From IMG/VR virus record IMGVR_UViG_3300026382_000006, positions 62,001-126,000 of that record: a DNA stretch of 64,000 nt; one strand, written 5' to 3'. A model generated the notes under the pieces. It worked only from the letters and a program-made list of their open reading frames with translations. It had not been told where the DNA came from and ran no database searches. Origin of the DNA: a virus. This document shows, piece by piece, positions 9,863 to 52,452 of the stretch (positions are counted from its first letter, which is position 1; each line of letters opens with the position of its first letter). The translations under genes were made by a program, and so were the position numbers.

Positions 9863-9888
9863 GTAATAGGAGTAAATACTCCTATTAC
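9863..9888 (-). terminator. Hairpin after prohead protease gene
   Basis: GTAATAGGAGT and its complement flank an AAAT loop, overlapping the last bases of the protease gene on the minus strand. Confidence 0.6.
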
Positions 9889-10634
9889 CAATTCATAATT
9901 ATATCTACTACATCTTTATCTTTTGCTAATACACTCTCTAGAGTCTCTATCACGCACTTACCATCTTTACAACCGCCTTCATAACCTACAATTATATTTT
10001 TTAAATCATTATCAGATAGGACTACATCCATTGTGGATTCTAATCCAGCTGCATTCCATTGGTTTGCCATATGCACACCGCCGTCATATACATAGTCCCA
10101 CGTAGATACTAACAATACATCTCTAATTACTAAATTTCCTACTGTTTTTTGTTTTACCAATGACCTTACAGAAAAATAGACATTCTCATCAGGATTTTCT
10201 AATGCTTCTTCCAATACTGCTTTTTTAGGTCCTTCTGGTTTTACCCAACCATATATTTTATAAATAGGATTTTTAAATCCTGGTTCTACTCTACCCGTAT
10301 TCTCTATTTCTATTTTCTTAATATGTGCGCATTTATTATCCGGGTCTAATCTAATAGTACGTTTTGTAAGTCCATTTATATCGTCATTTCTAATAAACCC
10401 CTCTACATCAGGGTGATCCTTTTCAGCTATTAAAATACCTTCGTTTATTCTTTTGGCTACTAAACTACCTGGTCCTAAAATAGCATTTATATCAGGCACA
10501 TTATAATAAATTCCTGATTTATTAAACGTATTAAATGCTCCAAAAGTTACTTTATAATATCCGTTTTCATCTTTTATTACTGTATTTTTAAAATTCTTTT
10601 TTTCTTTTTTACTAGCTAATACCATTTTATTCAT
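9885..10634 (-). CDS. Prohead maturation protease (T4 gp21 / S80 type)
   Basis: 249 residues. The family-typical His lies in AEKDHPDVEG (His74), and the Ser in VYFSVRSLV (Ser155), the arrangement of gp21-type prohead proteases (phiKZ gp175 family); these enzymes have a herpesvirus-protease-like fold. The role would be to cut capsid and inner-body propeptides inside the prohead. A VGYEGG motif at 216-221 has the same form as the proposed cleavage sites in the capsid and inner-body proteins, suggesting self-processing that would release a 30-residue tail. The start is supported by AAGGAGTAAAT. A short membrane ORF is upstream. Function is confident; the self-cleavage is inference. Confidence 0.82.
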   Translation of the reverse strand: MNKMVLASKKEKKNFKNTVIKDENGYYKVTFGAFNTFNKSGIYYNVPDINAILGPGSLVAKRINEGILIAEKDHPDVEGFIRNDDINGLTKRTIRLDPDNKCAHIKKIEIENTGRVEPGFKNPIYKIYGWVKPEGPKKAVLEEALENPDENVYFSVRSLVKQKTVGNLVIRDVLLVSTWDYVYDGGVHMANQWNAAGLESTMDVVLSDNDLKNIIVGYEGGCKDGKCVIETLESVLAKDKDVVDIIMNW

Positions 10635-31497: not shown

Positions 31498-31519
31498 TTT
31501 TAACTCCTTAATTTAATTT

Positions 31520-31539
31520 AATGTTTTCCGGAAAACATT
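31520..31539. promoter_or_regulatory. 20-bp perfect palindrome upstream of SSB-like gene
   Basis: AATGTTTTCCGGAAAACATT has no loop and sits about 22 bases upstream of the ATG at 31497, separate from the upstream gene's own hairpin. It may be an operator for a dimeric regulator or a leader RNA hairpin. Confidence 0.45.
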
Positions 31540-31586
31540 AGGAATATTCTTTCCTCATGAATGATATATGGTTAAAAAACATTGTA

Positions 31587-31609
31587 GTCTACCGTATTGA
31601 ACGGTAGAC
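31587..31609 (-). terminator. Hairpin at end of the 31589 gene
   Basis: GTCTACCGT and its complement with an ATTGA loop; overlaps the final codons of the minus-strand gene. Confidence 0.45.
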
Positions 31610-36426: not shown

Positions 36427-37692
36427 CTAATATTTTTTAAATCTTTCATTTAACTTTTTCTTATAATAATTACCCCATGTTTTAATGGATTCTATTAGCC
36501 AATTTGTAAATGGTGGTTTTATAATATATTCAGATAACTTAACTACATTATTTAAATCATCTCTTACATCACCTATTATGTAGTTTGACAGAATACTAGC
36601 TACTGCGACCATGTCTTCATCAGCATCTTTTTCAGCTGATTTAACAAATTTCTCTACCTTTACTTTAACATCTTTAATTAATTTATTAGACTTATTGACA
36701 ATTTTTTCTACATCTGAATATTTTTTAATACCTGTATTTACTACTTCACCGACCTCTACAAAATCTAAAGGTTCTGTTATTTTTTTCAAAAGACCTTCAT
36801 AAAGTTCTTTCGTAATCTCCACACTATAGTCATGCTTTTTAATACTTTGTAACAATTGTTTTGTCTTTTTAATATCTCCGTTTTTAGCTGCATTTATTGC
36901 TTCATCAAGTTTATCTTTAGGGATTGTAACTATTTGTAACTTAATAGATACTCTATCTATCTTTTTTAATCTTACATTAATTATTTTATCATTAGTTTTA
37001 AAATTCTTTAAAAATTTACTATAAGTTCTATCGTATATTGCATTTTTACTACCTTCTAAAGTCCATCTTAATATAAACATTATTAAACTCTTATTTAATG
37101 TTCCGGATACTAACTGTTTATATTTATCTTCTAATTCTGTATAACTATTTTCTAATTGTCTTTCAATTTTATCATAAAATTTTATCATACCCTTAGCACT
37201 CGGTTCTACTTCGAACCAGTCTAATGCGACTGCTTCTTTAGCAATTAAAATCCTGACTGGTTCTGAAAAATTACCTTCTGGAACAATATTCCCTTTTTTA
37301 TCTGCTTCATCTAGTATTTTTTTAATTTTATATAGCGTAGTATTCTTATTCTTTAATCTGGTTAAAAAGAACGCAAATACCTTATTAAAAAAATCTACTA
37401 TGGAATTTATCAGTCTAGTTATTGTATTTAAAATACCTGATAACATTTTCTTAGCATCTACTTCATATCCTGTTGTAATTCTATCTGGTGATATCCCCAA
37501 CATAATCAAATTAGATTCAGTTATCTTATCTATATCTTCATAAGCTACTGTTAACAATCTAGTGTCCGATTCATTTTGTTTCATAACTTCTATAGAATCT
37601 ATTAAGTCGCACGGATTGACTGGTTTGTCACTTTCTTCATACCCTAATACTGATTTAACTTCATCTTCTAAATGTTTTGTTAAAAAATTCAT
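36427..37692 (-). CDS. Inner-body (internal head) protein paralog A
   Basis: 421 residues. Member of a seven-copy family in this window. The propeptide has several G/A-Y-E motifs (LGYEE, VAYED), then the shared block NLIMLGISPD and TTGYEV (Gly75-Glu77), where I infer protease cleavage. Directly after it comes a hydrophobic amphipathic run (MLSGILNTITRLINSIVDFF, residues 83-102). The remaining 300 residues are Lys-rich and helical. phiKZ packs paralogous, protease-trimmed proteins into its inner body and injects some into the host; that is the model for the role here. Confidence 0.7.
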   Translation of the reverse strand: MNFLTKHLEDEVKSVLGYEESDKPVNPCDLIDSIEVMKQNESDTRLLTVAYEDIDKITESNLIMLGISPDRITTGYEVDAKKMLSGILNTITRLINSIVDFFNKVFAFFLTRLKNKNTTLYKIKKILDEADKKGNIVPEGNFSEPVRILIAKEAVALDWFEVEPSAKGMIKFYDKIERQLENSYTELEDKYKQLVSGTLNKSLIMFILRWTLEGSKNAIYDRTYSKFLKNFKTNDKIINVRLKKIDRVSIKLQIVTIPKDKLDEAINAAKNGDIKKTKQLLQSIKKHDYSVEITKELYEGLLKKITEPLDFVEVGEVVNTGIKKYSDVEKIVNKSNKLIKDVKVKVEKFVKSAEKDADEDMVAVASILSNYIIGDVRDDLNNVVKLSEYIIKPPFTNWLIESIKTWGNYYKKKLNERFKKY

Positions 37693-37703
37693 TATTTCTC
37701 CTT

Positions 37704-38207
37704 TTAAACTTCTAATTTACTAATGTCAATTTTTGGTCTAATTCTTTCAGAAGACATAAATAAGTCATCTTCTAGTCCATCATCATTAATTTGCTCATTA
37801 ATTTTATTAACAATGTAATCTTTATTCAAATCTATTACTCCATCTAAAAACATTTTAATTTTATCTTTCAATTCAGTATCGGTTACATTTAAGCTATATT
37901 CTAATAAATCTAAAACTTCTGTTAAGAATTCAGCAATAGCAGGTATTTCATCCGAATTCACTATTCTAATTGTAAATCCATTACTGTAAATATCTAATAT
38001 TTTACTTAAAGGTAACATTACTGTAGTATATTGTGTAATTGATTTCTTATCCTCTTTACCATCTACAATATTAATTGGTATACCCATAACTTTTAATTCT
38101 TCTTCTGAATATAGTGCTACTTGGGGTACTCTTACTAAAATCAATCTTTTGTTTAATTTCTCGTATGCTTGCATTTTTATAGTAACTGGACTAACATAAC
38201 CATTCAT
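37704..38207 (-). CDS. Hypothetical protein, 167 aa, tail locus
   Basis: 167 residues; beta-rich first half (RLILVRVPQVALYS), helical second half, basic end. No recognised family. It lies between the 419-residue hypothetical and paralog A with 1-12 base gaps, so co-expressed with virion genes. Function unknown. Confidence 0.65.
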   Translation of the reverse strand: MNGYVSPVTIKMQAYEKLNKRLILVRVPQVALYSEEELKVMGIPINIVDGKEDKKSITQYTTVMLPLSKILDIYSNGFTIRIVNSDEIPAIAEFLTEVLDLLEYSLNVTDTELKDKIKMFLDGVIDLNKDYIVNKINEQINDDGLEDDLFMSSERIRPKIDISKLEV

Positions 38208-38208
38208 T

Positions 38209-39465
38209 TCATTCTCCTATACTAACAGTAGTAAAACTGTTTAAATAGTATTTTATAATAAAATATAAAATAGGTATAAAATATAATTGTTGTACAACAC
38301 TCAAATCCTCTTTACTACGTATTAAAGTTAAAATATCATTTTTATCAATAGGTTCCTTATCTATTAATTTTAATATCACATTTTCAAATAACGTTAAGTT
38401 AGTATCTTCTATTACTTTAATACCAAATAAAACATCATAAAAGTCTTCTGAAAATATATAACTTTTTTTATTCAATGGCGGATAATATTCATTTTCATTA
38501 TTTTCGAAATTTTCATCAATTTCCGGAGTGTTATAGACATTTTCTAGTTTCACTACCCAATTTACAGGACTATATCTAATAGGTTTTAAATAAACATTAT
38601 TACCGTATTCTGTAACGAACTTTAAGTTCCTGTATCGTTTAATCTCTTCTATCATAATAGAATCATCTATCATATAGTCTAATATAGATATCTGTTTATC
38701 TAAATCATAAAGATAAACATCTCTTTTTAAATTGGATACACCAATGACTCTTTTAATAAAGTATTCTAAATTTGGATCATAGATAATTCCATTAAGTGTT
38801 TTATAACCTATTATGTTGTAATTAGTAGGTAAAATCATTCTTCTATTAAAAAATGATATTAAGTTAGATAATTCTGCTTTAAAGAAATTTACATCTACAT
38901 ACTGTTCAGTAGTATATATTTGTTGGTTATTTTCTATTCCATATCTGTCGTTATAATAAAAACTATTAACGGTTTTTTCTTTTAATCTTTTCACTATCTC
39001 TATGTTTGTATTGTCTATTATGTAATATAGTTTAAAGTTAATTTTATATACATCTCTATTATTGTATACGCCTCTAGTAACACCAGTTAAAATAAACAAT
39101 CCTTTTCTTCCATCCATTAAATTCGCTATAAATAAATCTCCTAATTTAGGCAAGACAGATAATAGGATAATACCTTCTCCCGTAATATCGTCGGGCTTGC
39201 TATTATCTAATGGTGAATTTAAAAATATAATTAAGTCCTTTATTTCGTTATACTCGGTAATCGGTAAATCTAACGACAAATCAAAATCAGATTGGTAATC
39301 AGTTATGTTGGTAATTAAATTAAAATAATTTACCTTCCATTTATAACCGCCTATCTGATTTAAAATAATAGTATTAGGTTCATCTGTTTCCATTATTCTA
39401 GTATTATCTACTTTTGTTTCTTCAACGTTTACCTTTATATCTTCTTTTACACTAAATATAGGCAT
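38209..39465 (-). CDS. Hypothetical virion-type protein, 418 aa
   Basis: AAGGAGATAATG lies before tandem ATGs at 39468 and 39465; spacing favours the second. 418 residues, beta-rich and Asn/Tyr/Ile-rich like the other tail proteins here, with no membrane segment apart from a hydrophobic C-terminus (FIPILYFIIKYYL). No named family. Position among tail genes suggests a baseplate or tail component. Confidence 0.65.
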   Translation of the reverse strand: MPIFSVKEDIKVNVEETKVDNTRIMETDEPNTIILNQIGGYKWKVNYFNLITNITDYQSDFDLSLDLPITEYNEIKDLIIFLNSPLDNSKPDDITGEGIILLSVLPKLGDLFIANLMDGRKGLFILTGVTRGVYNNRDVYKINFKLYYIIDNTNIEIVKRLKEKTVNSFYYNDRYGIENNQQIYTTEQYVDVNFFKAELSNLISFFNRRMILPTNYNIIGYKTLNGIIYDPNLEYFIKRVIGVSNLKRDVYLYDLDKQISILDYMIDDSIMIEEIKRYRNLKFVTEYGNNVYLKPIRYSPVNWVVKLENVYNTPEIDENFENNENEYYPPLNKKSYIFSEDFYDVLFGIKVIEDTNLTLFENVILKLIDKEPIDKNDILTLIRSKEDLSVVQQLYFIPILYFIIKYYLNSFTTVSIGE

Positions 39466-39510
39466 CATTATCTCCTTAAATACTTTCTTTCACAGAAAGA
39501 AAGGGATATT

Positions 39511-39536
39511 AGTAAAGAGGATATTTCCTCTTTACT
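39511..39536 (-). terminator. Hairpin after inner-body paralog B
   Basis: AGTAAAGAGGA and its complement around TATT, overlapping the stop at 39535. A second small inverted repeat (CTTTCTTT/AAAGAAAG) lies just downstream at about 39484-39504. Confidence 0.6.
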
Positions 39537-40761
39537 ATTTAATTTTTTCAGATTTTTTAATTATTGCTTCATACCTAATAGGTAAACTTGCAATACCGTT
39601 ATACAAAGTAATTAAAGAATCAAAATACGTATTTATCATAAGCTGCATTCCTGCACCAATCTTTAACTGTTTAGCTAATTTTACTATTGCTCCTGGTAGA
39701 CCACCCATTACTTCAGCTGCGTCATCTATCATACCGTCTAACCAGTTTTCAGCTACTCCTTTACTATAGTAATCATCTATTTCCTTCATAACTTTATAAA
39801 GTTTTTTACTATCTTTTACAAGTTTAATAAGATCTTCTCTTTTAATAGTAATTTCATCTACTTTAGGTACTATACCTGAGCACATTGCTCTTTTATAATC
39901 AACTTTTTCATTATTTTCAGAAGGTTTATAACCAATTATTTCGACTTTTTTATTACTAAAACCTATAGGTGCCAATACTAAATCAGGTTTCCAACTTTTT
40001 AATTCGTTCAACATTCTACAATCTATTTTATCCAACATTTTTAATACTGTAGTATTTTTAGGAAATGATTTAGAAACGTCCTTAGGACCTTTGATTTTCA
40101 TCAACTCGACATACAATTTACGTATACCCTCGCTAATACTTCCATCTAAAAGTTGATCAGCATTAGTATTCACAAAGTCCTCCATATTTTTAAAATTTAG
40201 ATCTTTGTAAATATTAAAATAAAGATTAAGTCCGATGTTATCAGTTTTTACTTTAAAAGACTTCACATCAGTCATTTCCTCTAGTTCTTTAACTATATCG
40301 TCTAGGTGTTTATTATAACCCATGAACCATCTTCTTATTTTACCTAGTTTTTTAAGTACCGATTTTAAACCGTTAAATACACCTTTCATAGCTGCTTTAA
40401 GTTTTTCTAATACTTTTTTAGCCATATCCTGTAGACCTTCATAGCCTGCTTCTACAGATTCATAACCAGGTATAGTTACACTTTCGTTACCAAAAATAGT
40501 TCTTTCTATATTAGCTACTACTTCAAAACCTTTAGCAATATCTAGTTCTGTAAGTTTACCTTCTTGATGTTTAGTTTCTATCTTAACTAGCATTTCTTCC
40601 ATAGCAACAGTTGCTCCATATATCATCTCTAAACCAGCCGAAACATTATTCATTTCTGCTTCTAAAAGCCCGGTACCTACTTCGACTATCTCCTCATAGC
40701 CAGGTGCAGTAAATGGTTCAGTTGTTTCCTCAAAAGCTTCATATCTATCTAAAATACCCAT
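39535..40761 (-). CDS. Inner-body protein paralog B
   Basis: 408 residues. The long acidic propeptide carries many motif copies: APGYEE, AKGFEV, IPGYES (99-101) and EAGYEG (106-108). The last is followed by a strongly cationic amphipathic stretch (VLEKLKAAMKGVFNGLKSVL, residues 117-136) and then a helical body. N-terminal MGILDRYEAFEE matches the starts of paralogs D, F and G. Likely trimmed by the prohead protease and packed in the inner body. Confidence 0.7.
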   Translation of the reverse strand: MGILDRYEAFEETTEPFTAPGYEEIVEVGTGLLEAEMNNVSAGLEMIYGATVAMEEMLVKIETKHQEGKLTELDIAKGFEVVANIERTIFGNESVTIPGYESVEAGYEGLQDMAKKVLEKLKAAMKGVFNGLKSVLKKLGKIRRWFMGYNKHLDDIVKELEEMTDVKSFKVKTDNIGLNLYFNIYKDLNFKNMEDFVNTNADQLLDGSISEGIRKLYVELMKIKGPKDVSKSFPKNTTVLKMLDKIDCRMLNELKSWKPDLVLAPIGFSNKKVEIIGYKPSENNEKVDYKRAMCSGIVPKVDEITIKREDLIKLVKDSKKLYKVMKEIDDYYSKGVAENWLDGMIDDAAEVMGGLPGAIVKLAKQLKIGAGMQLMINTYFDSLITLYNGIASLPIRYEAIIKKSEKIK

Positions 40762-40797
40762 TATTTCTCCTTCATTTTTTTTTAATCAAATTATCCA

Positions 40798-41871
40798 CTA
40801 CACAACTACTAAGTCTTTACTATCTGACAATTTAATTTCTATTCCTTTACACAAGTTTAAAGATTTTACACCATATGTATAAATATTTGATTTAATAAGA
40901 CCGTTTAATGATTTTGTATTGTGTTTTAAAAAGTTTCTAATAACACCACCGTTTACTTTATCTAAAACCTTAATAGCTCTTAATACTTCAGGATAAAACA
41001 CGCCCATAATCAATGCACTATTAACTGGATCCATCTTCTTTTCTTTAGTTATATATAAAGTCTTTAAATCTTTATTAACTTTTTTCATCATTTTTGTAAC
41101 TTTGTCTAATTCTTTTTCACCGTTATTCAACTCTTTTGTTAAATCGTTTATCAATGATTTACCCGTTTTTATAAGAGGTAAAATTTCCTTATTAGGATCT
41201 AAAGGTTTAACTTCGGCATTTTTTATATAATCTTTTCTTATTATTATTTCTTCCGAAATTAAACTTAATTTTCCTACTTCATTTTTAAATTTCATCTTCA
41301 ACTTGAAATCTTCTTTACTAATTTTTTCACCAGCAATCATCTTTTTAAAGAAAACTTTATAATCATTAAACGCGTTTTCCAATTCTTTAACATCGCCTTT
41401 ATAAACTATACCAGTTACGTAAATAATATCATCTTTCACGCCTGTAATATCTACAAATCCAGGTAATCCCAATAACTTCTTCATTTGTAAATAATCATTT
41501 ATTACCTTATCTAATTCACCGTTATTTTTAGATTCTACTTTACCGTCTTTTAATCTTTCTATTAACGCACCAAATCCTTTTTTATCAGAATAGTATGCAA
41601 TTTCTCTAATATCATTAAGATTAAATGTTGACAAAGTTGAAACATAAACACCAAAATAATTCTCAATATTTTTAGTATTCTTTTTCATTTTGTCTTCTAC
41701 TGCAGTATAGTATTCTAATAAACCTTTACCGTCTAAATGGTTTTTATTAAATATGACAGGTAATGATAGTTTAGATGCTAGAATTTGTTTAGTTTTATCG
41801 TCAAATTCATTCTTTTCTAAAACTAATTTTTTCTTACCATTTTCACTAACTTTATTATATGTTTCTTCCAA
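40798..41871 (-). CDS. Inner-body protein paralog C, C-terminal part (after in-frame TAG)
   Basis: 357 codons from a TTG at 41871 that has no ribosome binding site. Upstream, 27 sense codons in the same frame lead back to a TAG at 41953-41955 that ends the 105-codon N-terminal part. The 27 codons encode VSKVLDFIKKLLGKK, the cationic amphipathic element that follows the cleavage site in the paralogs. So this is the body of a 490-codon inner-body gene interrupted by one amber codon. It may be lost, made by suppression, or reflect a sequence error. The body is Lys-rich and helical. Confidence 0.65.
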   Translation of the reverse strand: MEETYNKVSENGKKKLVLEKNEFDDKTKQILASKLSLPVIFNKNHLDGKGLLEYYTAVEDKMKKNTKNIENYFGVYVSTLSTFNLNDIREIAYYSDKKGFGALIERLKDGKVESKNNGELDKVINDYLQMKKLLGLPGFVDITGVKDDIIYVTGIVYKGDVKELENAFNDYKVFFKKMIAGEKISKEDFKLKMKFKNEVGKLSLISEEIIIRKDYIKNAEVKPLDPNKEILPLIKTGKSLINDLTKELNNGEKELDKVTKMMKKVNKDLKTLYITKEKKMDPVNSALIMGVFYPEVLRAIKVLDKVNGGVIRNFLKHNTKSLNGLIKSNIYTYGVKSLNLCKGIEIKLSDSKDLVVV

Positions 41872-41952
41872 TCTACTAAATGAATCTATTTTTTTACCTA
41901 ATAATTTTTTAATAAAATCTAGTACTTTAGAAACTAGATCTTTAATACTGTA

Positions 41953-41955
41953 CTA
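41953..41955 (-). other. In-frame amber codon interrupting paralog C
   Basis: TAG with context CTT-TAG-TAC. Both sides are in one reading frame with no other stop over 490 codons, and both sides match the paralog family. Other genes here end with TAG, so general reassignment is unlikely. Confidence 0.8.
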
Positions 41956-42270
41956 AAGTTTTAGTAAAACATCACCTATTCTTTCACCCATGTTTTTAAT
42001 GGTATCTTTCACGCCTTCATAACCTGGACTATATGTAACTCCAAGTGCCTTTAAATTAGTTTCTAAATACCGATACCCTTCTTCAAAACCAATTTCAAAA
42101 TTATCGACATCATCAATATTTGCTAACATTTCATAACCAACTTCTGCATCTCTTACTTTCTCAATTATAGTAACTAAATCTAAATCTTCAAAACCATACT
42201 CAGTTTTACTTTCTTCATAAATAAATTCAGTTTTATTTATTTCATCATACTTTTCTAAAATATTCATCAT
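41953..42270 (-). CDS. Inner-body protein paralog C, N-terminal propeptide part
   Basis: 105 residues, ending at TAG. It has the family propeptide layout: MMNILEKYDE start, YGFED and VGYEM motifs, NLKALGVTYSPGYEG with the predicted cut at Gly83-Glu85, and about 20 residues of the mature part. A normal ribosome binding site (AAGGAGTAA) precedes it. On its own it would be little more than a propeptide, which argues that it is not an independent gene but the first part of paralog C. Confidence 0.68.
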   Translation of the reverse strand: MMNILEKYDEINKTEFIYEESKTEYGFEDLDLVTIIEKVRDAEVGYEMLANIDDVDNFEIGFEEGYRYLETNLKALGVTYSPGYEGVKDTIKNMGERIGDVLLKL

Positions 42271-43686
42271 TTACTCCTTATTTTTATTAAAATCATTCAA
42301 AGTCATTGTTATAATCTTCATCAACATTACTGTATACATGATATTGTCAGTCTCATAATGATATTGTAAATTTAATTTTTTCAACATTTCTATATATTGT
42401 TGTGCTAAATTATAATTTAAACCATCCGGGCTAAATATTATATTTAAATCCACTACTACGTTTAATACTATCCTATACGTCTTATTTAAATCCAACTCCT
42501 TACTACTCCTAATTTCTCCATCTGTATTTAAATAAAGTCCTAAATCCCTTAAGTTTTGATTTTCAAATAACTCAAAATGAAAAATATCAAATCCTGGTTT
42601 AAATAATGAATCGCCTATCCTAGTCTTTAGATAATCTAAAACAAATTCATTAATACCCAGAGCTTTTAATTCTTCAAGTGTTAAAATTAAATTAGGATCT
42701 TCTGGTAAAATTTCTAACAGTATAGATACTAATCTTACCATACCAGGTTTCTTAGCTATTCTATTAAAATCAAAACTGTCGTAATTTGGTACCTTAATAA
42801 TTACATCCGATTCCCTAACATACATATCTACATTATTTTTAATCTTTTCCATTGCTTCTGTGAAATAATTATTTGCATCTACATGTATTCTCGTAATTTC
42901 ATCTGGTAAAAACTTTTTATCTATAGGTTTGTTATTTACTGTAATAGGATATCTTAAAAATAATGAACTCGGTATTTCAATATCAAAACTAAATTGTAAT
43001 TCTATATAGTAACCTTTTTCATCTTTTTCAGGTTTTAAATCATATGGCTCTGACATTAAATAAATAAACACATTAGGTTGTATTTCCCTTACAATAGGTA
43101 CCTTATAATCATCTGTTCTCGATTTAATATAATCAATAGGTACACGTGATATTTCCAACAAATATTCACTAGGTTTTTTATTTAATAATTCTGCAATATT
43201 AATTGTTAAAGCTAACACAGGAACAGGAATTGTATAATAATATTCTACATCCATTACTAATCTATTACTATCTGTAATAGCTGTAGATTTTAATAAACTA
43301 ATTAATCTCACTATTTCATTTCTATTCTTACTATATAATCTTATATTTAAGTTAAAAGTAGTATTTATGATGTTATTATTTACTAAATAACCTATATTGT
43401 TATCCATTAATATAGCTTTACTATCTGGATATACCGCAGTATTATTAAACATGTAATCCGATTCTTGTATCTTTTCTACATTTACTTCCATATGGGTAGA
43501 ATAAGTTTTATTATCTTTAATATTATAATCTGTTTCAAAATTAGCCTCTTCTTTATCAGTTATAAAATAAACAGGCATTTCCTTATTTTTTAATAAATCA
43601 TTTTTTATCTTATCTATTGCCGATTTTACTATAGGTCTATCTATTGTAAACTCAGTATTATTCAGTAATACTATTCTTGTTATCAT
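42271..43686 (-). CDS. Probable tail/baseplate protein, 471 aa
   Basis: 471 residues, beta-rich and Asn/Ile-rich, with segments such as LNIRLYSKNRNEIVRLISLL and FIYLMSEPYDLKPEKDEKGY, then YITVNNK-like strands. No membrane span. It overlaps the upstream gene by 29 bases. It is similar in style to the plus-strand 52453 protein, both discussing strand-rich folds with central DPxL motifs, but I cannot name a family. Placed among inner-body and tail genes. Confidence 0.62.
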   Translation of the reverse strand: MITRIVLLNNTEFTIDRPIVKSAIDKIKNDLLKNKEMPVYFITDKEEANFETDYNIKDNKTYSTHMEVNVEKIQESDYMFNNTAVYPDSKAILMDNNIGYLVNNNIINTTFNLNIRLYSKNRNEIVRLISLLKSTAITDSNRLVMDVEYYYTIPVPVLALTINIAELLNKKPSEYLLEISRVPIDYIKSRTDDYKVPIVREIQPNVFIYLMSEPYDLKPEKDEKGYYIELQFSFDIEIPSSLFLRYPITVNNKPIDKKFLPDEITRIHVDANNYFTEAMEKIKNNVDMYVRESDVIIKVPNYDSFDFNRIAKKPGMVRLVSILLEILPEDPNLILTLEELKALGINEFVLDYLKTRIGDSLFKPGFDIFHFELFENQNLRDLGLYLNTDGEIRSSKELDLNKTYRIVLNVVVDLNIIFSPDGLNYNLAQQYIEMLKKLNLQYHYETDNIMYTVMLMKIITMTLNDFNKNKE

Positions 43687-44221
43687 CGTAGATTCCTAAT
43701 ATTTTTAACAATCCTACTGACAATAAAGTACCTATGGTTAATCCATAAAATGTAAATGCGAATATTATTAAATCACTTACTTTATCAGAATTAGTAAAGT
43801 TAACAGATGTCTTTTCACCAAATTCTTTAATATCAAACACTAACTCTTCGTAACATTCATTATTAGACAATATGTTTTTATACATAAAGGCAATAATATC
43901 TCTATGATTCTGATCTACTAATTGACAATTATTCGTATTATCGATATTCTCTAAATTAAAACTATCTTTAAATTCTGAATAATCTTCTAATAATTCGTTT
44001 ACTGGCTTCAATATACAATTATCTGGTCTGTCTATATAAATTTTTGATATTCTACTTAATTCTCCTATACTAACATCTTTTTCATTCTCCTTTAGGAAAT
44101 TAACAATATACATTACGATGTATAACATTTTATTTTCTTCTAAATCAAGACAGTCGATTTTGTTTTCCATAATACATCTTTTTGCTCTTGAATAAAGTGT
44201 TTCTATGTATTCTTTTTTCAT
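43658..44221 (-). CDS. Hypothetical protein with C-terminal membrane segment
   Basis: 187 residues. The first 145 are polar and acidic with several Cys (CIMENKIDCLDLE, NNCQLV, ECYEEL). One hydrophobic segment lies near the C-terminus (about 150-175, LIIFAFTFYGLTIGTLLSVG). No family recognised. It overlaps the next gene by 29 bases. A membrane-anchored role in infection, or a virion protein with a hydrophobic tail, is possible. Confidence 0.62.
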   Translation of the reverse strand: MKKEYIETLYSRAKRCIMENKIDCLDLEENKMLYIVMYIVNFLKENEKDVSIGELSRISKIYIDRPDNCILKPVNELLEDYSEFKDSFNLENIDNTNNCQLVDQNHRDIIAFMYKNILSNNECYEELVFDIKEFGEKTSVNFTNSDKVSDLIIFAFTFYGLTIGTLLSVGLLKILGIYDDNKNSITE

Positions 44222-44256
44222 CTATTACTCCTTATAATTAATAATTCATGAGAACA

Positions 44257-44282
44257 CATATAGGAGAATTCTCTCCTATATG
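44257..44282 (-). terminator. Hairpin after inner-body paralog D
   Basis: CATATAGGAGA and its complement around ATTC, overlapping the stop at 44276. Shares the TAGGAGA arm with three other hairpins. Confidence 0.62.
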
Positions 44283-45832
44283 CGATCTAAAAGATGACCT
44301 AAACTACTTATATTTTTAAGTATAAAATCTGTATTTTCACCTAAAATCTTTTCTTCCAATACTAACTTATTTACCTCGTTAATAATTTTTGTAATGGAAT
44401 TTAGATTATTATTAAAACAATTTACTATTTTATTATAATCGTTAGAAACTTTTCTAATTAAAGTTAGTTGCATATCGCTTAAAGCTTCTCCGTTTAATGC
44501 GCTATCTACTATATTCTTTATACTTCTTGTATCTTTTTCCAAAGTTTTTATATATGGATCTAGTAATTTGTGCTTTTTAATATTTATTAAAAAGTCATAT
44601 AAGTTTCCAAATTCATTAAGTAAAAGCTTGGTATTAGATGTAGTTTTTCCTATTACATCAAAATTAGAATATGGAAAATCTGATATTACCTTTTCTAATT
44701 TAATTTGTAATTCATTTTTTAATACTGTATCTTTCATTATGTCTTCTAGATTTTTATTTTCTACTAGCTTTATTATTTCATCAATTACTTCTGTGTTAAT
44801 TCCAGTAAAATATGTATCTTTAAAACAAATAGGTGCAATGCTATTCTCGACATCTTCTATTGCTGGTAATCGAGATGCCATCGCTATTAATTTGCTATCT
44901 GCTTCTTTACCTGCAAGTAGCATTAGTAAGTATTTATACAACATTCTGACTCTAGATATAAAATCCAATATTATAACTGGCGATACACCATTCAACATGC
45001 AATACTTTGCGAGTTTGTTCTCATCTAGAAAATTATTTAACCTTGATCTTATTGTAAGAGCTTTTTTACCGGAAATATCTATGAATTTCTCCAACAATTC
45101 TATATAGAATTCTAAATCTTTTTTATACGAATCTTTCTCACGATTGGCAGCATTTAAACTAGCTACCAAGTTTTCCAATTTTTTCTTAGTTTTTTGAAGC
45201 TCTTGAGATAATTTTTTATTCTCTTCGGATAGAATTTTTTCATCCTCACGTGCGTTATTAATTCTTTCTTGTAATTCCGCGTTATGTGATTCCAGATTAT
45301 TTATTATTTCTTTATAATTATTAATCCTGTTTTTAAGACCTTCAAGATTTATATTTAATTCTCTAAGTTCTTGATCTTTTTTCTTAATTATTGCTTCTAA
45401 TTCTTCTATTTTCCTTTTGTTTTCTTCTTTTACTTTTTCTAGTCCTTCACTGTCTTTACCGAATATTTTCTTAAATACTTTCTTAAACCAGTTAACTACT
45501 TTTTCTACCATACCTACTATAAAATCCCATAATTTTTTTATACCAGTTTTTATAGCAGTTATAGTCTTAGATAAAATATTATCTTTGCCTTCGTATCCTA
45601 ATCTTATTGTATCTGGATCTATGCCTAACATAATTAAATTAGATTCAAATCCTGTATTTAATTTGGATACTGTTTCATAACCTATATATAGGATATTTAA
45701 ATCGGTAGATATTTGTTTTGTTTTTTCTACATTATCCAACAAATCCACCAACTCATAACCTATCTCTATCTCATCACCATCTACTGATGTTGTCTGATTA
45801 CTATTTTCAGTGTATTTACTTAAAATGCTCAT
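44276..45832 (-). CDS. Inner-body protein paralog D with long coiled coil
   Basis: 518 residues. Propeptide: MSILSKYTEN, IGYEL, IGYET, TGFES, NLIMLGIDPD and LGYEG (Gly79-Glu81, inferred cut). Next, AIKTGIKKLWDFIVGMVEKV and NWFKKVFKKIFGKD (about 93-124) form cationic amphipathic helices. Residues about 125-240 are a long, strongly heptad-like coiled coil unique to this copy. The remaining half resembles the other bodies. The coiled coil may give the inner body its rod-like packing; that is inference. Confidence 0.72.
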   Translation of the reverse strand: MSILSKYTENSNQTTSVDGDEIEIGYELVDLLDNVEKTKQISTDLNILYIGYETVSKLNTGFESNLIMLGIDPDTIRLGYEGKDNILSKTITAIKTGIKKLWDFIVGMVEKVVNWFKKVFKKIFGKDSEGLEKVKEENKRKIEELEAIIKKKDQELRELNINLEGLKNRINNYKEIINNLESHNAELQERINNAREDEKILSEENKKLSQELQKTKKKLENLVASLNAANREKDSYKKDLEFYIELLEKFIDISGKKALTIRSRLNNFLDENKLAKYCMLNGVSPVIILDFISRVRMLYKYLLMLLAGKEADSKLIAMASRLPAIEDVENSIAPICFKDTYFTGINTEVIDEIIKLVENKNLEDIMKDTVLKNELQIKLEKVISDFPYSNFDVIGKTTSNTKLLLNEFGNLYDFLINIKKHKLLDPYIKTLEKDTRSIKNIVDSALNGEALSDMQLTLIRKVSNDYNKIVNCFNNNLNSITKIINEVNKLVLEEKILGENTDFILKNISSLGHLLDRI

Positions 45833-45859
45833 AATTTGCTCCTTTTTTTTATCAGTTTA

Positions 45860-47230
45860 TTAAAATACTTCATATAGTTTTAAACATTCATCTAAGTAAT
45901 CATAAATAGCATAATTGTTCACATTTCTAGACATACTAATAAGTCCATTAAAACTATCTATAATGAATTTAAATTCTGTATTTAGTAAATAGGACACCAT
46001 ATTTCTATATACTTCACCCTTTAATTTTTGAAGACTATCACCGTGTTCTAATAGTTTGTTAACGTATTTATTAAACTTACTAAACTGTCTTTTATACTTA
46101 TCTAAGATACCCTTATAATGTTTAGCCATTAATTCTATTTCACGTATTGTTCCATCTACTTCATCAACGTCTAGTACTTTAACAGTGAAATTCTTGTAAT
46201 TTGTATTTGTAGGATTTAAAGAAATTTTTTCATACTTTGTTAAAGATTTTAATTTATTCATAGCATCATTTAACAATGTTAAGTTTTCATCACCTTTACT
46301 ATAGACCATATTTTTAATAATATTACTAGTATCCGGATTTTTATACATCCGTACACCTAATACTACTTTATCATAATTTAAGGAAATAATGTTTATTTTC
46401 TTGTCTAAGTTACTTGGTAAAATTTTGTCTAAAACTTTGTCTATTTCAGATAATCCAATTTTATTATTATAATAAGAAAATAATAAAAGTGATTCGAAAA
46501 TATCTAATATTTCATCTGGATCATCAGGTATATTTATATTTTTCTGTTTTATAATTCGAATACCTGTTAACTTTTGAAAAATAGTTTTTACTTTACTGGC
46601 TATCTCACTAGGATTATCCTCTAATGCTGCAATTAAGGCTACGTTATTGTATTCCTTAACATCTAAACCTTTAACTACATTAAAATACCTAAATAACCCT
46701 ACATAACTAATTTCGTTAGACACAATACCAACACCAAATAATTGTTTTCTTATTTTATCAGCAACTTTATCCGATAATGCTGTAGAAGCTCTGGATAATC
46801 GCTTTGTTCGTATTTCATTCACTCTTTTTCTCATCTGTGAGATAAACACAGTCTTACCTGTAATTACTCTAAACAAGAAATTAACTGCTTTTACCATTAA
46901 TTCAGCTGTAATTCTTATAGATTCTATTATAGCCGTCTTTACTATTCTCCATGTCTTTTTTAAAAGAGTTTTAGCATCTTCATTACCTGTTCTAATATCA
47001 GATATACCTAATATTTTAAGATTGCTTAGCATGTCCTCATAACCGTTTGTCACTATGTCATTATTTACATTATAAGCATTTAACGCTAAGTCTGTAGCTT
47101 TAGAAATTTGTATTTGCTCATCTATCAGATCCATATATTCCATTTCCTCTAACCCAATGGATAGTTCATCATCTTTTTCAACGCTCACCTCACATTCAAC
47201 ATTATACGTGTATTGTTTTATTAAATCCAT
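45860..47230 (-). CDS. Inner-body protein paralog E
   Basis: 456 residues. Propeptide with TNGYED at 62-66 and the shared NLKILGISD block, but at the usual cut position it reads RTGNED (Gly82-Asn83-Glu84), the only copy with Asn in place of Tyr/Phe. If the aromatic residue is needed, this copy may be cut elsewhere or not at all. Residues about 88-120 (LLKKTWRIVKTAIIESIRI) are again cationic and amphipathic. The body is Lys/Ile/Asn-rich and helical. Confidence 0.7.
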   Translation of the reverse strand: MDLIKQYTYNVECEVSVEKDDELSIGLEEMEYMDLIDEQIQISKATDLALNAYNVNNDIVTNGYEDMLSNLKILGISDIRTGNEDAKTLLKKTWRIVKTAIIESIRITAELMVKAVNFLFRVITGKTVFISQMRKRVNEIRTKRLSRASTALSDKVADKIRKQLFGVGIVSNEISYVGLFRYFNVVKGLDVKEYNNVALIAALEDNPSEIASKVKTIFQKLTGIRIIKQKNINIPDDPDEILDIFESLLLFSYYNNKIGLSEIDKVLDKILPSNLDKKINIISLNYDKVVLGVRMYKNPDTSNIIKNMVYSKGDENLTLLNDAMNKLKSLTKYEKISLNPTNTNYKNFTVKVLDVDEVDGTIREIELMAKHYKGILDKYKRQFSKFNKYVNKLLEHGDSLQKLKGEVYRNMVSYLLNTEFKFIIDSFNGLISMSRNVNNYAIYDYLDECLKLYEVF

Positions 47231-47270
47231 CTTTTTTCCTTTAGTCTAATCTCATTCATGGAAAAAAGTG

Positions 47271-47297
47271 ATTCACTAGGGAATTTCCCTAGTGAAT
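47271..47297 (-). terminator. Hairpin after inner-body paralog F
   Basis: Thirteen-bp arms (ATTCACTAGGGAA and complement) with a one-base centre, a few bases after the stop at 47309 on the minus strand. Confidence 0.62.
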
Positions 47298-47308
47298 TAT
47301 TTAATACC

Positions 47309-48667
47309 TTAAGATTTAGTATATAGTTTAACACTATATGTAACTAACATAGCAATTCTAGATTTAGTAAGTTCAGCTGCCGTATTTATAGCTCCCGTAG
47401 CAACTGCCCTGCTCATCGGTATTATTACCTTATTAAGAAATACTAAGTATGTTTTATATAAGTCATCTTTTTCAGCAATTTTAATTAAATCTTTAATTTG
47501 TTTATCTGTTTCTTTAACAACTTTTTTAATATCTTTTACTGTTTTACTAATAGGTTTAGACGCTTTCTCAAGAGCTGTCACAATTTGCTCAGCTTCTTTT
47601 ACATCTACAGGTTGAATTTTCTTAGCAAGAGCCTCTACCTGCTTTTTATCAGGTCTTACTTCTACTACATTGTATGCTATTGCTTTTCTTAAATCATTAA
47701 TAACTTTTGTAAGGTTAGCATCGTCCTTATTAAGTTCTGTTTCAATTTCATCTATTCTTTTTTTATCGGCCGATAAAACAACTACCTTAATTAAATTAGG
47801 TCTAATTTCACTAACTGTACCATAAACGTATTTATTATCAAGTTTTATTTTATTTTTAACTACTTCACCAGCTACGCCTTCGATCTTACCTGATTTAAGA
47901 CTAGAAATAGTACCCAATAAAGATGCTTTAATTTTCTTTTCATCTTTATTATCTGTTATCGTCTTTGACAATATTTCATAGCCGTCTACTGTAGTTGCAA
48001 ATATATCCTCTGCTTCTTTTAGGAAGCATTCAATTCCTTTTACATCTACAGTTTTACATACTGTTTCAATTACTGCTAGATTATTGGCTAGAGTTTTAGC
48101 ATCACCTTCGCTAAATTTAGCATCTTTAGGTAAATCTTTACCTGCTTCTTTTACTTTCTCAAGTAGTTTTTTAAGACTATCTGCACTTCTAGCTCTTTTA
48201 CCGAATAGGCTAGCTATAAAATCAGATACTTTTTCTACGAATCTAACTACAGCTTCCCATAATTTTTTAAGTCCGGTTTTAATAGCTCCCCAGATTTTAC
48301 CTAGCCATCCTTCTTTTTCACCTTTACCACCATCTTCTTCAAATCCCGCTACAGCTACAGACTCAGGATCTACACCTAACATTTTTAGGTTTGCTTTAAA
48401 AGACTCAAATCCTACTACTGCTGTTTCGGGTGTCATTTTACCTTTTGCAATCAATTCAGCATCGATAGCTATGCTATGTTCGATAGCTTCGAATCCGTTT
48501 GTCAATACTTCTAAATCGGTTGCCACAGTAGTTACTTCTTCAAAAGCTTCTACTGCTTCCATCATTGCTTCTTCTGGTTCTACTTCTGCATTACCGAAGT
48601 CAATTACTCCGTTACCAGTAAGCTCATCTGCTTCTTCAAATCCTAATACTCTATCTAATGGTCCCAT
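47309..48667 (-). CDS. Inner-body protein paralog F
   Basis: 452 residues from ATG 48667; AAGGAGATTTTA precedes it, five codons inside the longest frame. Propeptide motifs: LGFEE, TNGFEA, VGFES and AVAGFEED (Gly108-Glu110, inferred cut), after NLKMLGVDPE. Then WLGKIWGAIKTGLKKLWEAV (about 121-140) and RFVEKVSDFIASLFGKR form the amphipathic element. Codon use is richer in Ala, Gly and Val than the other copies, similar to the capsid gene, suggesting this is the most highly expressed paralog. Confidence 0.74.
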   Translation of the reverse strand: MGPLDRVLGFEEADELTGNGVIDFGNAEVEPEEAMMEAVEAFEEVTTVATDLEVLTNGFEAIEHSIAIDAELIAKGKMTPETAVVGFESFKANLKMLGVDPESVAVAGFEEDGGKGEKEGWLGKIWGAIKTGLKKLWEAVVRFVEKVSDFIASLFGKRARSADSLKKLLEKVKEAGKDLPKDAKFSEGDAKTLANNLAVIETVCKTVDVKGIECFLKEAEDIFATTVDGYEILSKTITDNKDEKKIKASLLGTISSLKSGKIEGVAGEVVKNKIKLDNKYVYGTVSEIRPNLIKVVVLSADKKRIDEIETELNKDDANLTKVINDLRKAIAYNVVEVRPDKKQVEALAKKIQPVDVKEAEQIVTALEKASKPISKTVKDIKKVVKETDKQIKDLIKIAEKDDLYKTYLVFLNKVIIPMSRAVATGAINTAAELTKSRIAMLVTYSVKLYTKS

Positions 48668-48708
48668 TAAAATCTCCTTCAATTTTGATTTATTTTTTCA
48701 ATACAAAG

Positions 48709-50280
48709 TTACCTAACTGGCATTTTTGTATAATAATCAGATAATATTCTTATAAATAAAGACATACCTTTCTTGTTAAAGATAAAGTCCCTATAGTATT
48801 TACTAATACTGTGCACAGTATTACTCATCATTTGTAATGTATGTAAGATGAGTTCACTATATTTAAACCAAACTTTACCTAATCGTTTCATGTCTGGATT
48901 ATCGCTATTATTTAAAAATTGTTTCATCACTTCATTCATAGTTTTAAAACTTCTCATAAACTTATTTATTTTGTTTTTTAATTCTTTTTCTCTATATATA
49001 CCTATTTTAAATTTTTCAGTAACAGCGTCATATGTAGCTAATGCTTTTATTACTTTCTCTAATTGTCCTCTAGTAACTATGTCGGATTCATCCAACATAT
49101 CTTTAAATTTATATCCTAAAGATTCTACTATATCTTTTGTTAACCTACCAGGCATAATACTAATATTTAGATAAGTTTTATAAATACTGTTAAACACCTC
49201 TAATAATTCATCAAACGCTCTTTCATCAGCTTTAGTAGAACGTTTTAATATTTCCATCATGTCTTTATAACATTTCTCAAAATCAGGTTTTATTGTTAAT
49301 CTTAAATATGAAATCTCATTAGGTCCAATAGATGTAATAATTATTTTATTATTGTCAGTATCTTTTATATCTTCATACGTTAAAATGTCTTTATAAACTT
49401 TTATTAAATAATCACTATCATATTTTACATCAAATAGTAATGGTAATTTATGTAGCTCTTTTAAATCATCTCTATATAGTTTTTTAATAACATCTACTTC
49501 ATTAGCTAGTACTTCATAATCTTTAGACAATACAACTGTATTAATATTTTCCATAATTTTATTTTTAAATATAAACATATGTGTATCCATAGGGAATATC
49601 ATATCTAATGCTTCAGGTATCTGTAAATTTTCTAATTTATAAAATACTTCTAATAAAGCTCTCATTACGTCTATAACATTATAAGAATCGATATGTCCTG
49701 CCATATATAAGACCATAGGCATTCTCATCAATGTCTCATTTTTTATTCTATCTAATAAATCATAATCTTCATCATTTTCTACAATTCTATCTAATTCTTC
49801 ATCGATATTTTTATGTTCTTTTTCAGCTTTCTTTTTAGCTTTTTCATAACTTTCTTCTACTTCTTCTTTAACAGTCTTTTTATCTTTTTTAAACCATGAT
49901 ATAATAGTATTTATCAATTTGTCTAGAAATTTATAAATAGCTTTTAATAATTCACCTATTGTATTTATAATTGTTTTAAAAAAGTTTTTGATAGCATTTA
50001 TACTGGTATCTAACACTCCCTCGAAACCTGGATCAACTGTATTTATATTTATTCCCAACATTTGTAAATTGATTTTAACATACTCAGTAGCTACATACAA
50101 ATCATCAGTCTGTGTGGTATTATTTATAACACTACTAGCAGTAGAGACTTTACTAGCTTTAACTAAGTTTTGTTTTAAATCTTCTACAGCGTCTATATAA
50201 TCGATATACGATTCTTCTTTACTAGACTCATTATTAGTTGTTTCAACCTCAAAACCTTCATATTTATTTATTCTATCCAT
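48709..50280 (-). CDS. Inner-body protein paralog G
   Basis: 523 residues. MDRINKYEGFEVE start, NLQMLGININ block, then DPGFEG at Gly85-Glu87 (inferred cut). Residues about 95-140 contain INAIKNFFKTIINTIGELLK and LINTIISWFKKDKK, again amphipathic and cationic. A Lys/Glu coiled stretch (about 145-165) follows, then a large helical body ending YYTKMPVR. Seventh member of the family, first of the minus-strand inner-body run. Confidence 0.72.
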   Translation of the reverse strand: MDRINKYEGFEVETTNNESSKEESYIDYIDAVEDLKQNLVKASKVSTASSVINNTTQTDDLYVATEYVKINLQMLGININTVDPGFEGVLDTSINAIKNFFKTIINTIGELLKAIYKFLDKLINTIISWFKKDKKTVKEEVEESYEKAKKKAEKEHKNIDEELDRIVENDEDYDLLDRIKNETLMRMPMVLYMAGHIDSYNVIDVMRALLEVFYKLENLQIPEALDMIFPMDTHMFIFKNKIMENINTVVLSKDYEVLANEVDVIKKLYRDDLKELHKLPLLFDVKYDSDYLIKVYKDILTYEDIKDTDNNKIIITSIGPNEISYLRLTIKPDFEKCYKDMMEILKRSTKADERAFDELLEVFNSIYKTYLNISIMPGRLTKDIVESLGYKFKDMLDESDIVTRGQLEKVIKALATYDAVTEKFKIGIYREKELKNKINKFMRSFKTMNEVMKQFLNNSDNPDMKRLGKVWFKYSELILHTLQMMSNTVHSISKYYRDFIFNKKGMSLFIRILSDYYTKMPVR

Positions 50281-50344: not shown

Positions 50345-51259
50345 TTATTCTACATCCATAATAGCTTCTATTTTTTCTTCTGTTTTGGCTAGTTTCTTTT
50401 CATAATACTCAATTTGTTTTTTAAGTTTTTCATCATTAGGATTATCCTTTAATTTATTCTTTAGTTCCAATAGTTTTAATTCTAACAATCTCTTTTTATC
50501 TTTTAAAGATTCTAATTTGTTTAATTCTACATCCACTAAAAATTTTCTAATATGATATATAGGATTATATTTAAAATTAGTTTTTAAATCTCCTGCTGAC
50601 CATGAAAGTAAACCTGTCGTTAAACCTAATGTAAAATTATTATTTACATTTAATTCATTTTTCATAAATTTGGCAATTAAACTAGCCATGAATCCTGATT
50701 TAGATTTTGGTGTAGGTAAATTCCCAATATTAGATACTATTTCGTTTAAATCGGCTTTTACATAATCTAGAAAATAAACTAATGTAGGCATACTTTCAAC
50801 TACTTTATTATAGAGTTTAACTTGGTCTTCTGTAAATGCCTCTTTCAAATATAAACCATCCACTGCCCATGTAATAAAATCAGGTATATAGTAAGCAAAG
50901 AAAGTTGACATTGATACCATCGTAAGCGCTGTATTAATATTTGGATCATTAGTTTCCAAAGGTATTGATTCTGGTAAATCATTTACTATTTTAGTCTCTA
51001 GTTCTGGAATAACATCAGATATTTTCATAATTAACTTTTTAATGTCTGTAAGTAATTCAATATCATCCTTATAACCTAAATCCCTAAAATAAACATGTTT
51101 AATTATTTCTGTTCTTTCTTTTTTAGGTAATCCGGACAACAACTTGATTAATTTAGATAATTCGAGTATTGTAACATTGTTTAACCAATCTTCTGCATGT
51201 TCTAAAGCTTTTACAAGATTATCTTTACTATAAGTTTTCTTAAATAAATTTGATAGCAT
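50345..51259 (-). CDS. Hypothetical helical protein with coiled-coil end
   Basis: 304 residues. Two moderately hydrophobic helices near residues 105-135 (TMVSMSTFFAYYIPDFITWA), then at the C-terminus a clear Lys/Leu/Glu coiled coil (about 245-304, KKRLLELKLLELKNKLKDN). No G-Y-E motif, so probably not processed like the paralogs. Its position in the inner-body run suggests a virion component. Family not recognised. Confidence 0.66.
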   Translation of the reverse strand: MLSNLFKKTYSKDNLVKALEHAEDWLNNVTILELSKLIKLLSGLPKKERTEIIKHVYFRDLGYKDDIELLTDIKKLIMKISDVIPELETKIVNDLPESIPLETNDPNINTALTMVSMSTFFAYYIPDFITWAVDGLYLKEAFTEDQVKLYNKVVESMPTLVYFLDYVKADLNEIVSNIGNLPTPKSKSGFMASLIAKFMKNELNVNNNFTLGLTTGLLSWSAGDLKTNFKYNPIYHIRKFLVDVELNKLESLKDKKRLLELKLLELKNKLKDNPNDEKLKKQIEYYEKKLAKTEEKIEAIMDVE

Positions 51260-51273
51260 AACTTTCTCCTTTT

Positions 51274-52368
51274 TTAAAATGGTGGTCTACCAGATAATAG
51301 ATTTTTAAATATTTCATTTGCATCTGTATCTTTTTCTTTACCTAACATCTTAAACGTAATTACTGATGGTATTTTACTTAACTTTGTTAAATAAAATATT
51401 CTTTCTTTGTTATTATCTACAAACGATACGCTAAATGCTCTCAATGCCTCTAATAAATTATCTTTGTATTTACTACTTTTAATTACGTCACCTTTTATAA
51501 TATTGTCTATCATTGATTTTTCATTAATGTCAAAATTAAATATGTTATAATATTCAGAAAAACTTCTGCCTCTACCGCTTAATAATTTTAACATGTTATT
51601 TGATTTTTTCTCTGTCAAAATCTTGACTATATCTGATTGATTTTTGATTCTATTCTTTTTATACTCTTTTACTAAATCTGTGGCAAATAAAAATTCTGCT
51701 AAACTGATAGCTCCTGCTCTCCATTCGTCTAATCTAGCAAAAAATCCTACATCTTTTTCAACTACTCCATCCAATAACGCTTTGGTATCTGTGAATATAA
51801 TATTAGCTTGTATAAATAAAGGTATTACTACTAACTTGGTAGTATCACCTATTTTAGTTTCTATCTTAACCTCATATTTACTAACAAATATTCCTGTATC
51901 TTTCATTACGTCTTTTTTATCAATAACAGTTTGTTTTTTCTTTTCATTGTCTTTAGCTTCAAAACCAGTGGATACTAGACCTTCAATGTCAAACATATTC
52001 GTAATAAAATCAGTTTCTTCATTACCAGAAAATAAATTATTAGCAGCACTAGTTACACTGGCACTTCTCACGTCTCTTATTTTTTCAATAATTACCCTAG
52101 GACTTAAATTATAAACGTCTGCCATTACTCTAATTGATTCAGCTACAATTGAACCAAATACAGCCAACTCTGCCTTTATTAAGCTTCTTAAATTTTTTTC
52201 GTCCATGTATTTCAAATTGTTACTCAAAACTACATTTGGCGTAATAACATAATCCTCCATAAATGTAACAACATCATTGCTAACGGTGACTGGTAAACTA
52301 GTATTATCCAAAGTTATTTTTTCAGAAAGATTTTGTAAAACAGTAAGCACTGAATTAATACTCAACAT
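51274..52368 (-). CDS. Probable processed virion protein, 364 aa
   Basis: ATG at 52368 chosen because AAGGAGAAAATA precedes it; the longer frame adds ten codons of leader. 364 residues. Residues 133-138 read STGFEA, the family cleavage motif, after a 130-residue helical leader, so this may be another protease substrate although it lacks the NLxMLG block and the amphipathic helix. The remainder is Lys-rich and helical, like the inner-body proteins. Confidence 0.66.
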   Translation of the reverse strand: MLSINSVLTVLQNLSEKITLDNTSLPVTVSNDVVTFMEDYVITPNVVLSNNLKYMDEKNLRSLIKAELAVFGSIVAESIRVMADVYNLSPRVIIEKIRDVRSASVTSAANNLFSGNEETDFITNMFDIEGLVSTGFEAKDNEKKKQTVIDKKDVMKDTGIFVSKYEVKIETKIGDTTKLVVIPLFIQANIIFTDTKALLDGVVEKDVGFFARLDEWRAGAISLAEFLFATDLVKEYKKNRIKNQSDIVKILTEKKSNNMLKLLSGRGRSFSEYYNIFNFDINEKSMIDNIIKGDVIKSSKYKDNLLEALRAFSVSFVDNNKERIFYLTKLSKIPSVITFKMLGKEKDTDANEIFKNLLSGRPPF

Positions 52369-52452
52369 TATTTTCTCCTTAATATAATAGATATTCAATT
52401 CAAACGATTCCTGGATTTCTTGAAAATGCGATATATGATTAAAGGAAAAGGC

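Follow-up and report, generated by a model that had tools for sequence, protein, structure and literature searches.

The window analysed here is a stretch of 64,000 nt of the virus record IMGVR_UViG_3300026382_000006 (positions 62,001-126,000), in which the region of interest spans positions 36427-50280. The record measures 186 kb and belongs to a distant relative of phiKZ; no close relatives were found by single-protein searches of viral contigs or by a nucleotide search of phages. The region contains seven genes, referred to as copies A to G, all on the minus strand and interspersed with homologues of phiKZ gp98 and gp99. The family is flanked by a gp101 homologue at one end and by genes of the gp90 and gp89 types at the other; beyond the latter, gp88 and gp87 are found on the opposite strand. 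The gp87, gp88, gp90, gp98, gp99 and gp101 homologues follow the order of phiKZ gp87-gp101, and the seven copies occupy the place of the phiKZ_IP genes, beside gp87-gp90 and gp98-gp101. All copies are laid out alike: a short N-terminal tag comes first, then an acidic propeptide in which G-[YF]-E sites recur, and after the last cut a cationic amphipathic helix. The features are listed in Table 1, in which the start of copy B has been corrected from TTG 48682 to ATG 48667, which is preceded by the Shine-Dalgarno sequence AAGGAG.

Table 1. Features of the seven-copy family and of related head genes (window coordinates).
Feature	Coordinates	Strand	Remarks
gp89 / SPN3US gp50-type head protein	51274..52398	(-)	assigned by gene order and a weak profile match; GFE-147
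phiKZ gp90-type head protein	50345..51259	(-)	
Copy A, 523 aa	48709..50280	(-)	tag MDRINKYEGFE, 87-aa propeptide, GFE-87, amphipathic helix, divergent body
Copy A, putative maturation site GFE-87	50020..50028	(-)	E87 lies in an almost invariant Glu column of alignment A5
Copy A, post-cleavage amphipathic helix	49870..50019	(-)	first 50 predicted mature residues
Copy B, 452 aa	47309..48667	(-)	best PF12699 match; GFE-110
Copy B, putative maturation site GFE-110	48338..48346	(-)	Glu kept in 93% of 57 homologues
Copy B, Trp/Lys amphipathic segment	48143..48337	(-)	start of mature body; first part of predicted 61-residue helix (115-175)
Copy C, 456 aa	45860..47230	(-)	site GNE-84
Copy C, putative maturation site GNE-84	46979..46987	(-)	
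Copy D, 518 aa	44276..45832	(-)	four G[YF]E sites, the last GYE-81; then amphipathic helix and coiled coil
Copy D, putative maturation site GYE-81	45590..45598	(-)	
phiKZ gp98 homologue	42271..43686	(-)	lies between D and E, outside the family
Copy E	40798..42270	(-)	propeptide, GYE-85 and half of the helix (41953-42270), in-frame TAG, body ORF (40798-41871) in the same frame
Copy E, in-frame TAG	41953..41955	(-)	inside the helix
Copy E, putative maturation site GYE-85	42016..42024	(-)	relatives-only cut profile sets P1 exactly here
Copy F, 408 aa	39535..40761	(-)	sites GYE-101 and GYE-108; no LGI block
Copy F, last site GYE-108	40438..40446	(-)	
phiKZ gp99 homologue	38209..39468	(-)	lies between F and G, outside the family
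Copy G, 421 aa	36427..37692	(-)	sites GYE-19 and GYE-77
Copy G, putative maturation site GYE-77	37462..37470	(-)	
Prohead protease, phiKZ gp175 homologue	9885..10634	(-)	34% identity; C-terminal GYE-219 aligned with phiKZ GFE
Major capsid protein, phiKZ gp120 homologue	4410..6536	(-)	GYE-129 aligned with SPN3US ATE-130 and phiKZ GLE

Copy E is interrupted. Its first ORF ends at an in-frame TAG and the same frame runs on into the body ORF, which has a TTG start without a ribosome-binding site; the stop falls within the helix, where 96% of the relatives have a hydrophobic residue. Since TAG is a normal stop in this phage (it terminates 38 of the 150 ORFs of at least 150 aa) and no tRNA genes were found in it, recoding was rejected as the reason and the codon was treated as a single amber. 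It could reflect a copy broken by mutation, an assembly error or readthrough.

With regard to the record as a whole, both its ends carry the same 125-base direct repeat (G000:C1:1-125 and 186089-186213, outside the window), and the RNA polymerase gene homologous to phiKZ gp178 spans their join, so that the genome looks complete at about 186 kb. This size is below the 200 kb limit for jumbo phages, yet a chimallin homologue is present (G000 128422-130236, E 7e-7). The gp178 homologue is contained in two ORFs, one of 1049 aa and one of about 405 aa across the join, with a gap of about 236 bases (G000:C1:838-1073) that could represent a split gene, an intron or an error.

One family of phiKZ_IP homologues

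Judged by their sequences, the seven minus-strand genes are one paralogous family, as the preliminary description had held. In leave-one-out profiles built from the conserved propeptide block, the site and the 30 residues that follow, each omitted copy ranks ahead of every phage ORF outside the family (E 2e-17 to 1e-3). With a profile made only of relatives, the seven copies take ranks 1 to 7 among about 196 phage proteins, with scores of 97.5% for B, 92% for D, 36.5% for C, 33.7% for F, 22.8% for A, 15.8% for G and 15.4% for E (read through its stop); the best non-family protein reaches 3.5%. The agreement of both kinds of profile with the gene order is the reason for grouping the copies together, with A and C as the weakest members by sequence; homology support for single copies is strong for B and D, and weaker for A, C, E, F and G. 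Some weak profile matches to tape-measure and coiled-coil models could be taken to mean that the seven ORFs are unrelated proteins of those kinds, alike by composition. We consider this very improbable: it is contradicted by the relatives-only ranking, and gene order, the site column and the fold search likewise indicate one family.

The motifs recognized at the outset fared somewhat differently from one another. The common N-terminal start holds for every copy, as the pattern M-x-x-[ILN]-x-[KRQ]-[YHV] fits 7 of 7, with about one chance match among the other 188 proteins. A G-[Y/F/N]-E site is present throughout, copy C having GNE at its last site. The block given as NL-x-M-LGI-x-P stands in six copies as NLxMLGI; it is absent from F, and its proline occurs only in B, D and G. 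Outside the family, the block-site-helix profiles score highest for two neighbouring small proteins (G000:C1:29886-30821, minus strand, and 31449-32192, plus strand), in which a short N-terminus ending in GYE (19 and 22 aa, respectively) is followed by an amphipathic segment; these may be further cut head proteins.

On the same kind of evidence the seven genes are divergent homologues of phiKZ_IP (PF12699), the phiKZ gp93-type inner-body or ejection proteins. PF12699 matches copy B with 25.9 bits (E 7e-6) and copy E, read through its stop, with E 1e-3. As the Pfam gathering score is 27 bits, 1.1 bits above B and further above the other copies, we file them as divergent homologues and not as Pfam-curated members. 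In the reverse direction, the profile of the family alignment finds phiKZ gp93 at 2.6e-20 and gp162 at 1.8e-7, both significant, so that the search for gp93/gp95/gp162-type homologues proposed in the preliminary description backs this identity. Some relatives, such as L042, match both gp93 (3e-12) and copy B (4e-6), and the matches of a BFVD fold search are phiKZ-like internal head and virion structural proteins. Divergence is nonetheless wide, with identities of about 11-23% between copy B and the other rows of the family. Proteins of this kind are known to be present in the virion head and to be injected in phiKZ and SPN3US (PMC10449902, PMC5694885), the injected phiKZ members being gp93, gp94, gp95, gp97 and gp163 (PMC10449902). 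By analogy with these relatives, the seven copies are predicted to be located in the virion and injected.

Putative maturation sites and the helix behind the last cut

The G[YF]E motif occurs 54 times in the phage proteome against 17.2 expected, a threefold excess clustered in the seven-copy family. Two alignments lend it credibility as a prohead-protease site: GYE-129 of the capsid protein shares a column with the mapped SPN3US cut ATE-130 (PMC10052503 Table 2), and GYE-219 of the protease lies opposite the GFE of phiKZ gp175. Portal GYE-223, gp84-like GFE-17 (SPN3US gp45 ASE-20) and gp89-like GFE-147 match by position only. The SPN3US counterparts of all five head proteins (capsid, protease, portal, gp84-like and gp89-like) are known to be cut (PMC10052503 Table 2).

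Within the family, the glutamate of the last site of copy B is the most conserved column of the 57 aligned homologues, and a second site about 15 residues further on is kept in most relatives. SPN3US gp53 is cut at AQE-125 and gp54 at ARE-137, giving mature proteins that start with GWKETLKDLFER and SLWDDIK; gp54 is cut also at AQE-124, and so at both sites (PMC10052503). This double cut matches the two-site layout of the relatives; in the window copies the two sites are mostly merged into one. Cleavage of the propeptide in this phage is predicted from those relatives whose cuts have been mapped, and its removal by a protease, as originally suggested, is backed by homology, the phage encoding a gp175-type enzyme of its own (Table 1).

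The N-terminal tag is common to the seven copies and a gp84-like protein (G000:C1:159282-161297, minus strand), which begins with MDILSKY as in the family and is unrelated in the remainder. Its GFE-17 is near the SPN3US gp45 cut (position 20), suggesting that the tag may be a portable head-targeting element. A protein of 104 aa (G000:C1:165087-165401, plus strand) starts with MENILTKYLGFE, a family-like tag with an immediate GFE site, and is possibly another head-targeted protein. Among the relatives, whose starts were chosen mechanically, the tag pattern [ILVMF]..[YLIFVM].. is found in only 18 of 66; in many of them the tag is short and ends in [SA]xE, with otherwise variable letters.

The description of a Lys/Trp/Phe-rich amphipathic helix directly past the cut is supported by homology, and the helix is kept in the relatives too. 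In each copy the stretch past the last site includes an 18-mer whose amphipathicity places it in the top 1.2% of the phage proteome, and no more than 1% of all 45-mers reach the observed charge and moment. The net charge switches from between −9 and −20 in the propeptides to between +1 and +10 in the first 45 mature residues (+1 in B). In the relatives the helix-proximal cut is followed by G-I-K-[ED]-x-x-K-x-I-W-x-x-I, with hydrophobic positions spaced 3-4 residues apart as far as P45'. Conservation at positions 2-4, 6, 9 and 10 is partly by construction, as these were fixed in the seed pattern, and only the other positions count as evidence; positions 13, 17, 20, 21, 24, 27, 28 and 31, which were not fixed, are 82-100% hydrophobic. 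A profile of the helix region built without window sequences has as its best phage matches D (3e-9), B (7e-8), F (4e-5), E read through its stop (1e-4) and G (4e-4), and it sets the cut exactly in E and F; copy A scores E 4.5 with this profile and copy C was not found by it. Tryptophan amounts to 5-7% of residues 1-32 after the helix-proximal cut in the relatives versus 0-0.7% elsewhere; the copies in the window show less of an excess, with 2-3% in residues 1-48 versus 0-0.4%. Overall, the last-cut glutamate and the helix are the best-conserved part of a very divergent family. No such helix is found behind the cuts of the shell (capsid) and portal proteins; phiKZ gp86 and SPN3US gp47, the latter with a transmembrane segment, have a hydrophobic segment right after the cut.

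The AlphaFold model of copy B (pLDDT 80, pTM 0.74) consists of two propeptide helices, a loop holding GFE-110, and the helix that opens the mature body; the model of copy A (pLDDT 57) has the same order of elements. The best match of both among solved structures is phiKZ gp86 (chain G of the capsid model 8y6v), from about the SQE of gp86 onward, with Z 11.0 over 230 residues for B and Z 8.4 over 199 residues for the low-confidence model of A, values in a range (8-11) that helical bundles can reach through a shared arrangement. A Foldseek search against the PDB gave no match with E < 0.001, and matches to pore-forming toxins and fusion proteins were set aside, as they sit in the helical background. 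The chains of gp93 and gp162, both found by the family profile, are present in 8y6v. The preliminary description had spoken of membrane-active or DNA-condensing peptides; this wording is not supported. In the model the helix stays joined to the mature body as the first part of its long first helix, which weakens the idea of a free peptide, and the alignment with gp86 from just after that protein's own site further counters it.

Proposed role of the post-cut helix

From the homology, gene order, site placement, conservation, charge switch and predicted fold, all computed here, we consider it likely that the seven genes encode inner-body (ejection) proteins that are trimmed by the gp175-type protease, exposing a helix that docks in the head. 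The short tag would probably direct each protein into the prohead, where during head maturation the protease would remove the acidic helical propeptide piecewise at several G-[YF]-E sites, the last cut falling in the loop just before the first long helix of the mature body. To judge from the charges and the order of the parts, the acidic propeptide may keep the cationic, Trp-rich face of the helix unavailable until the capsid is built. Cleavage would then expose this face for docking, so that the protein is retained in the head by contact with the capsid interior, with other inner-body proteins or with packaged DNA; injection would come after docking.

Alternatively, the amphipathic face may be no more than a buried seam along which the first helix packs into a helical bundle; cleavage would then remove a folding and targeting aid and release no binding surface. 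The 3-4-spaced hydrophobic positions, from P2' to P45' along a single predicted helix, speak for such packing; however, Trp and Phe cluster in the first 32 residues and are not spread over the remaining body, and the last-cut glutamate and the helix are conserved better than the rest of the family. We regard ordinary packing as possible, if rather unlikely. The charge switch, together with the fact that inner-body proteins share the head with the packaged DNA (PMC13282480), could instead mean that the cationic helix binds this DNA and organises the inner body around it. This seems unlikely, as the first 45 residues carry only a modest net charge and aromatic residues are no signature of DNA binding.

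A role after injection must also be weighed. The Trp/Lys-rich helix, freed by the cut, would attach to the inner membrane of the host and contribute to forming or anchoring the vesicle that nucleus-forming phages make early in infection. Trp confined to residues 1-32 past the cut and few acids in residues 17-32, both seen in the relatives, are also features of interfacial membrane helices; a transmembrane segment lies just past the cut of SPN3US gp47 (PMC5694885), and the post-cut segments of A, B, D and F give weak tape-measure profile matches. Moreover, phiKZ injects proteins of this family (PMC10449902), the present phage encodes the chimallin homologue mentioned above, and the early infection vesicle is enclosed by a membrane and holds virion proteins that were injected (PMC12908238). 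On the other hand, the helix belongs to the predicted body fold and the related gp86 is matched in the capsid model from that very point, while the tape-measure matches may be due to composition alone. On balance we find a membrane role doubtful, and its stricter version, a protease-licensed anchor that is silent while joined to the acidic propeptide, is released in the head and builds the early infection vesicle after injection, is in our opinion improbable. Docking in the head is the function that we prefer to assign, by inference, to the helix.

Two questions are open in the field: how the early membrane vesicle of phiKZ-like phages arises, and which functions the inner-body proteins have once injected (PMC12908238, PMC13282480). 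The conserved helix, which sits exactly at the maturation cut and holds almost all of the Trp, provides a small, defined segment for tests of membrane, DNA or capsid binding in phiKZ or SPN3US.

Comparison with known systems

Propeptide processing, the paralog family and injection are already known for phiKZ and SPN3US (PMC5694885, PMC10052503, PMC10449902). The conserved Trp helix at the cut, the family-wide two-site propeptide end and the gp86 match are apparently undescribed within the SPN3US and phiKZ papers compared, which is no proof of novelty; the word 'amphipathic' occurs in neither of the SPN3US maturation papers, and 'helix', 'hydrophobic' and 'tryptophan' are absent from PMC10052503.

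The closest parallel is with phiKZ gp93, gp94, gp95, gp162 and gp163 (PF12699, paralog family A), which have in common with the present copies the gene neighbourhood, a short tag ending in an S/A/G-x-E-type site, an acidic multi-site propeptide with a two-site end, a cationic amphipathic helix past the last site, and a helical body. The differences are that here the site is narrowed to G-[YF]-E, and that the seven copies are interleaved with the gp98 and gp99 homologues. In SPN3US gp53 and gp54, which are highly abundant ejection proteins, the mapped cuts fall right before the same helix (PMC10052503); there, however, the motif is A-x-E, the copies are only two, and the propeptides are longer (125-137 aa versus 77-110 aa here). 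phiKZ gp86 likewise has an SQE followed by an amphipathic Trp helix, although its sequence link to the family is weak (E 0.0055). Finally, the tag may work like the capsid-targeting sequence of the T4 internal proteins and Alt, from which the prohead protease removes a short N-terminal tag (PMC5694885), with the difference that the T4 propeptides are of 10-20 aa and a second, acidic propeptide is not part of them.
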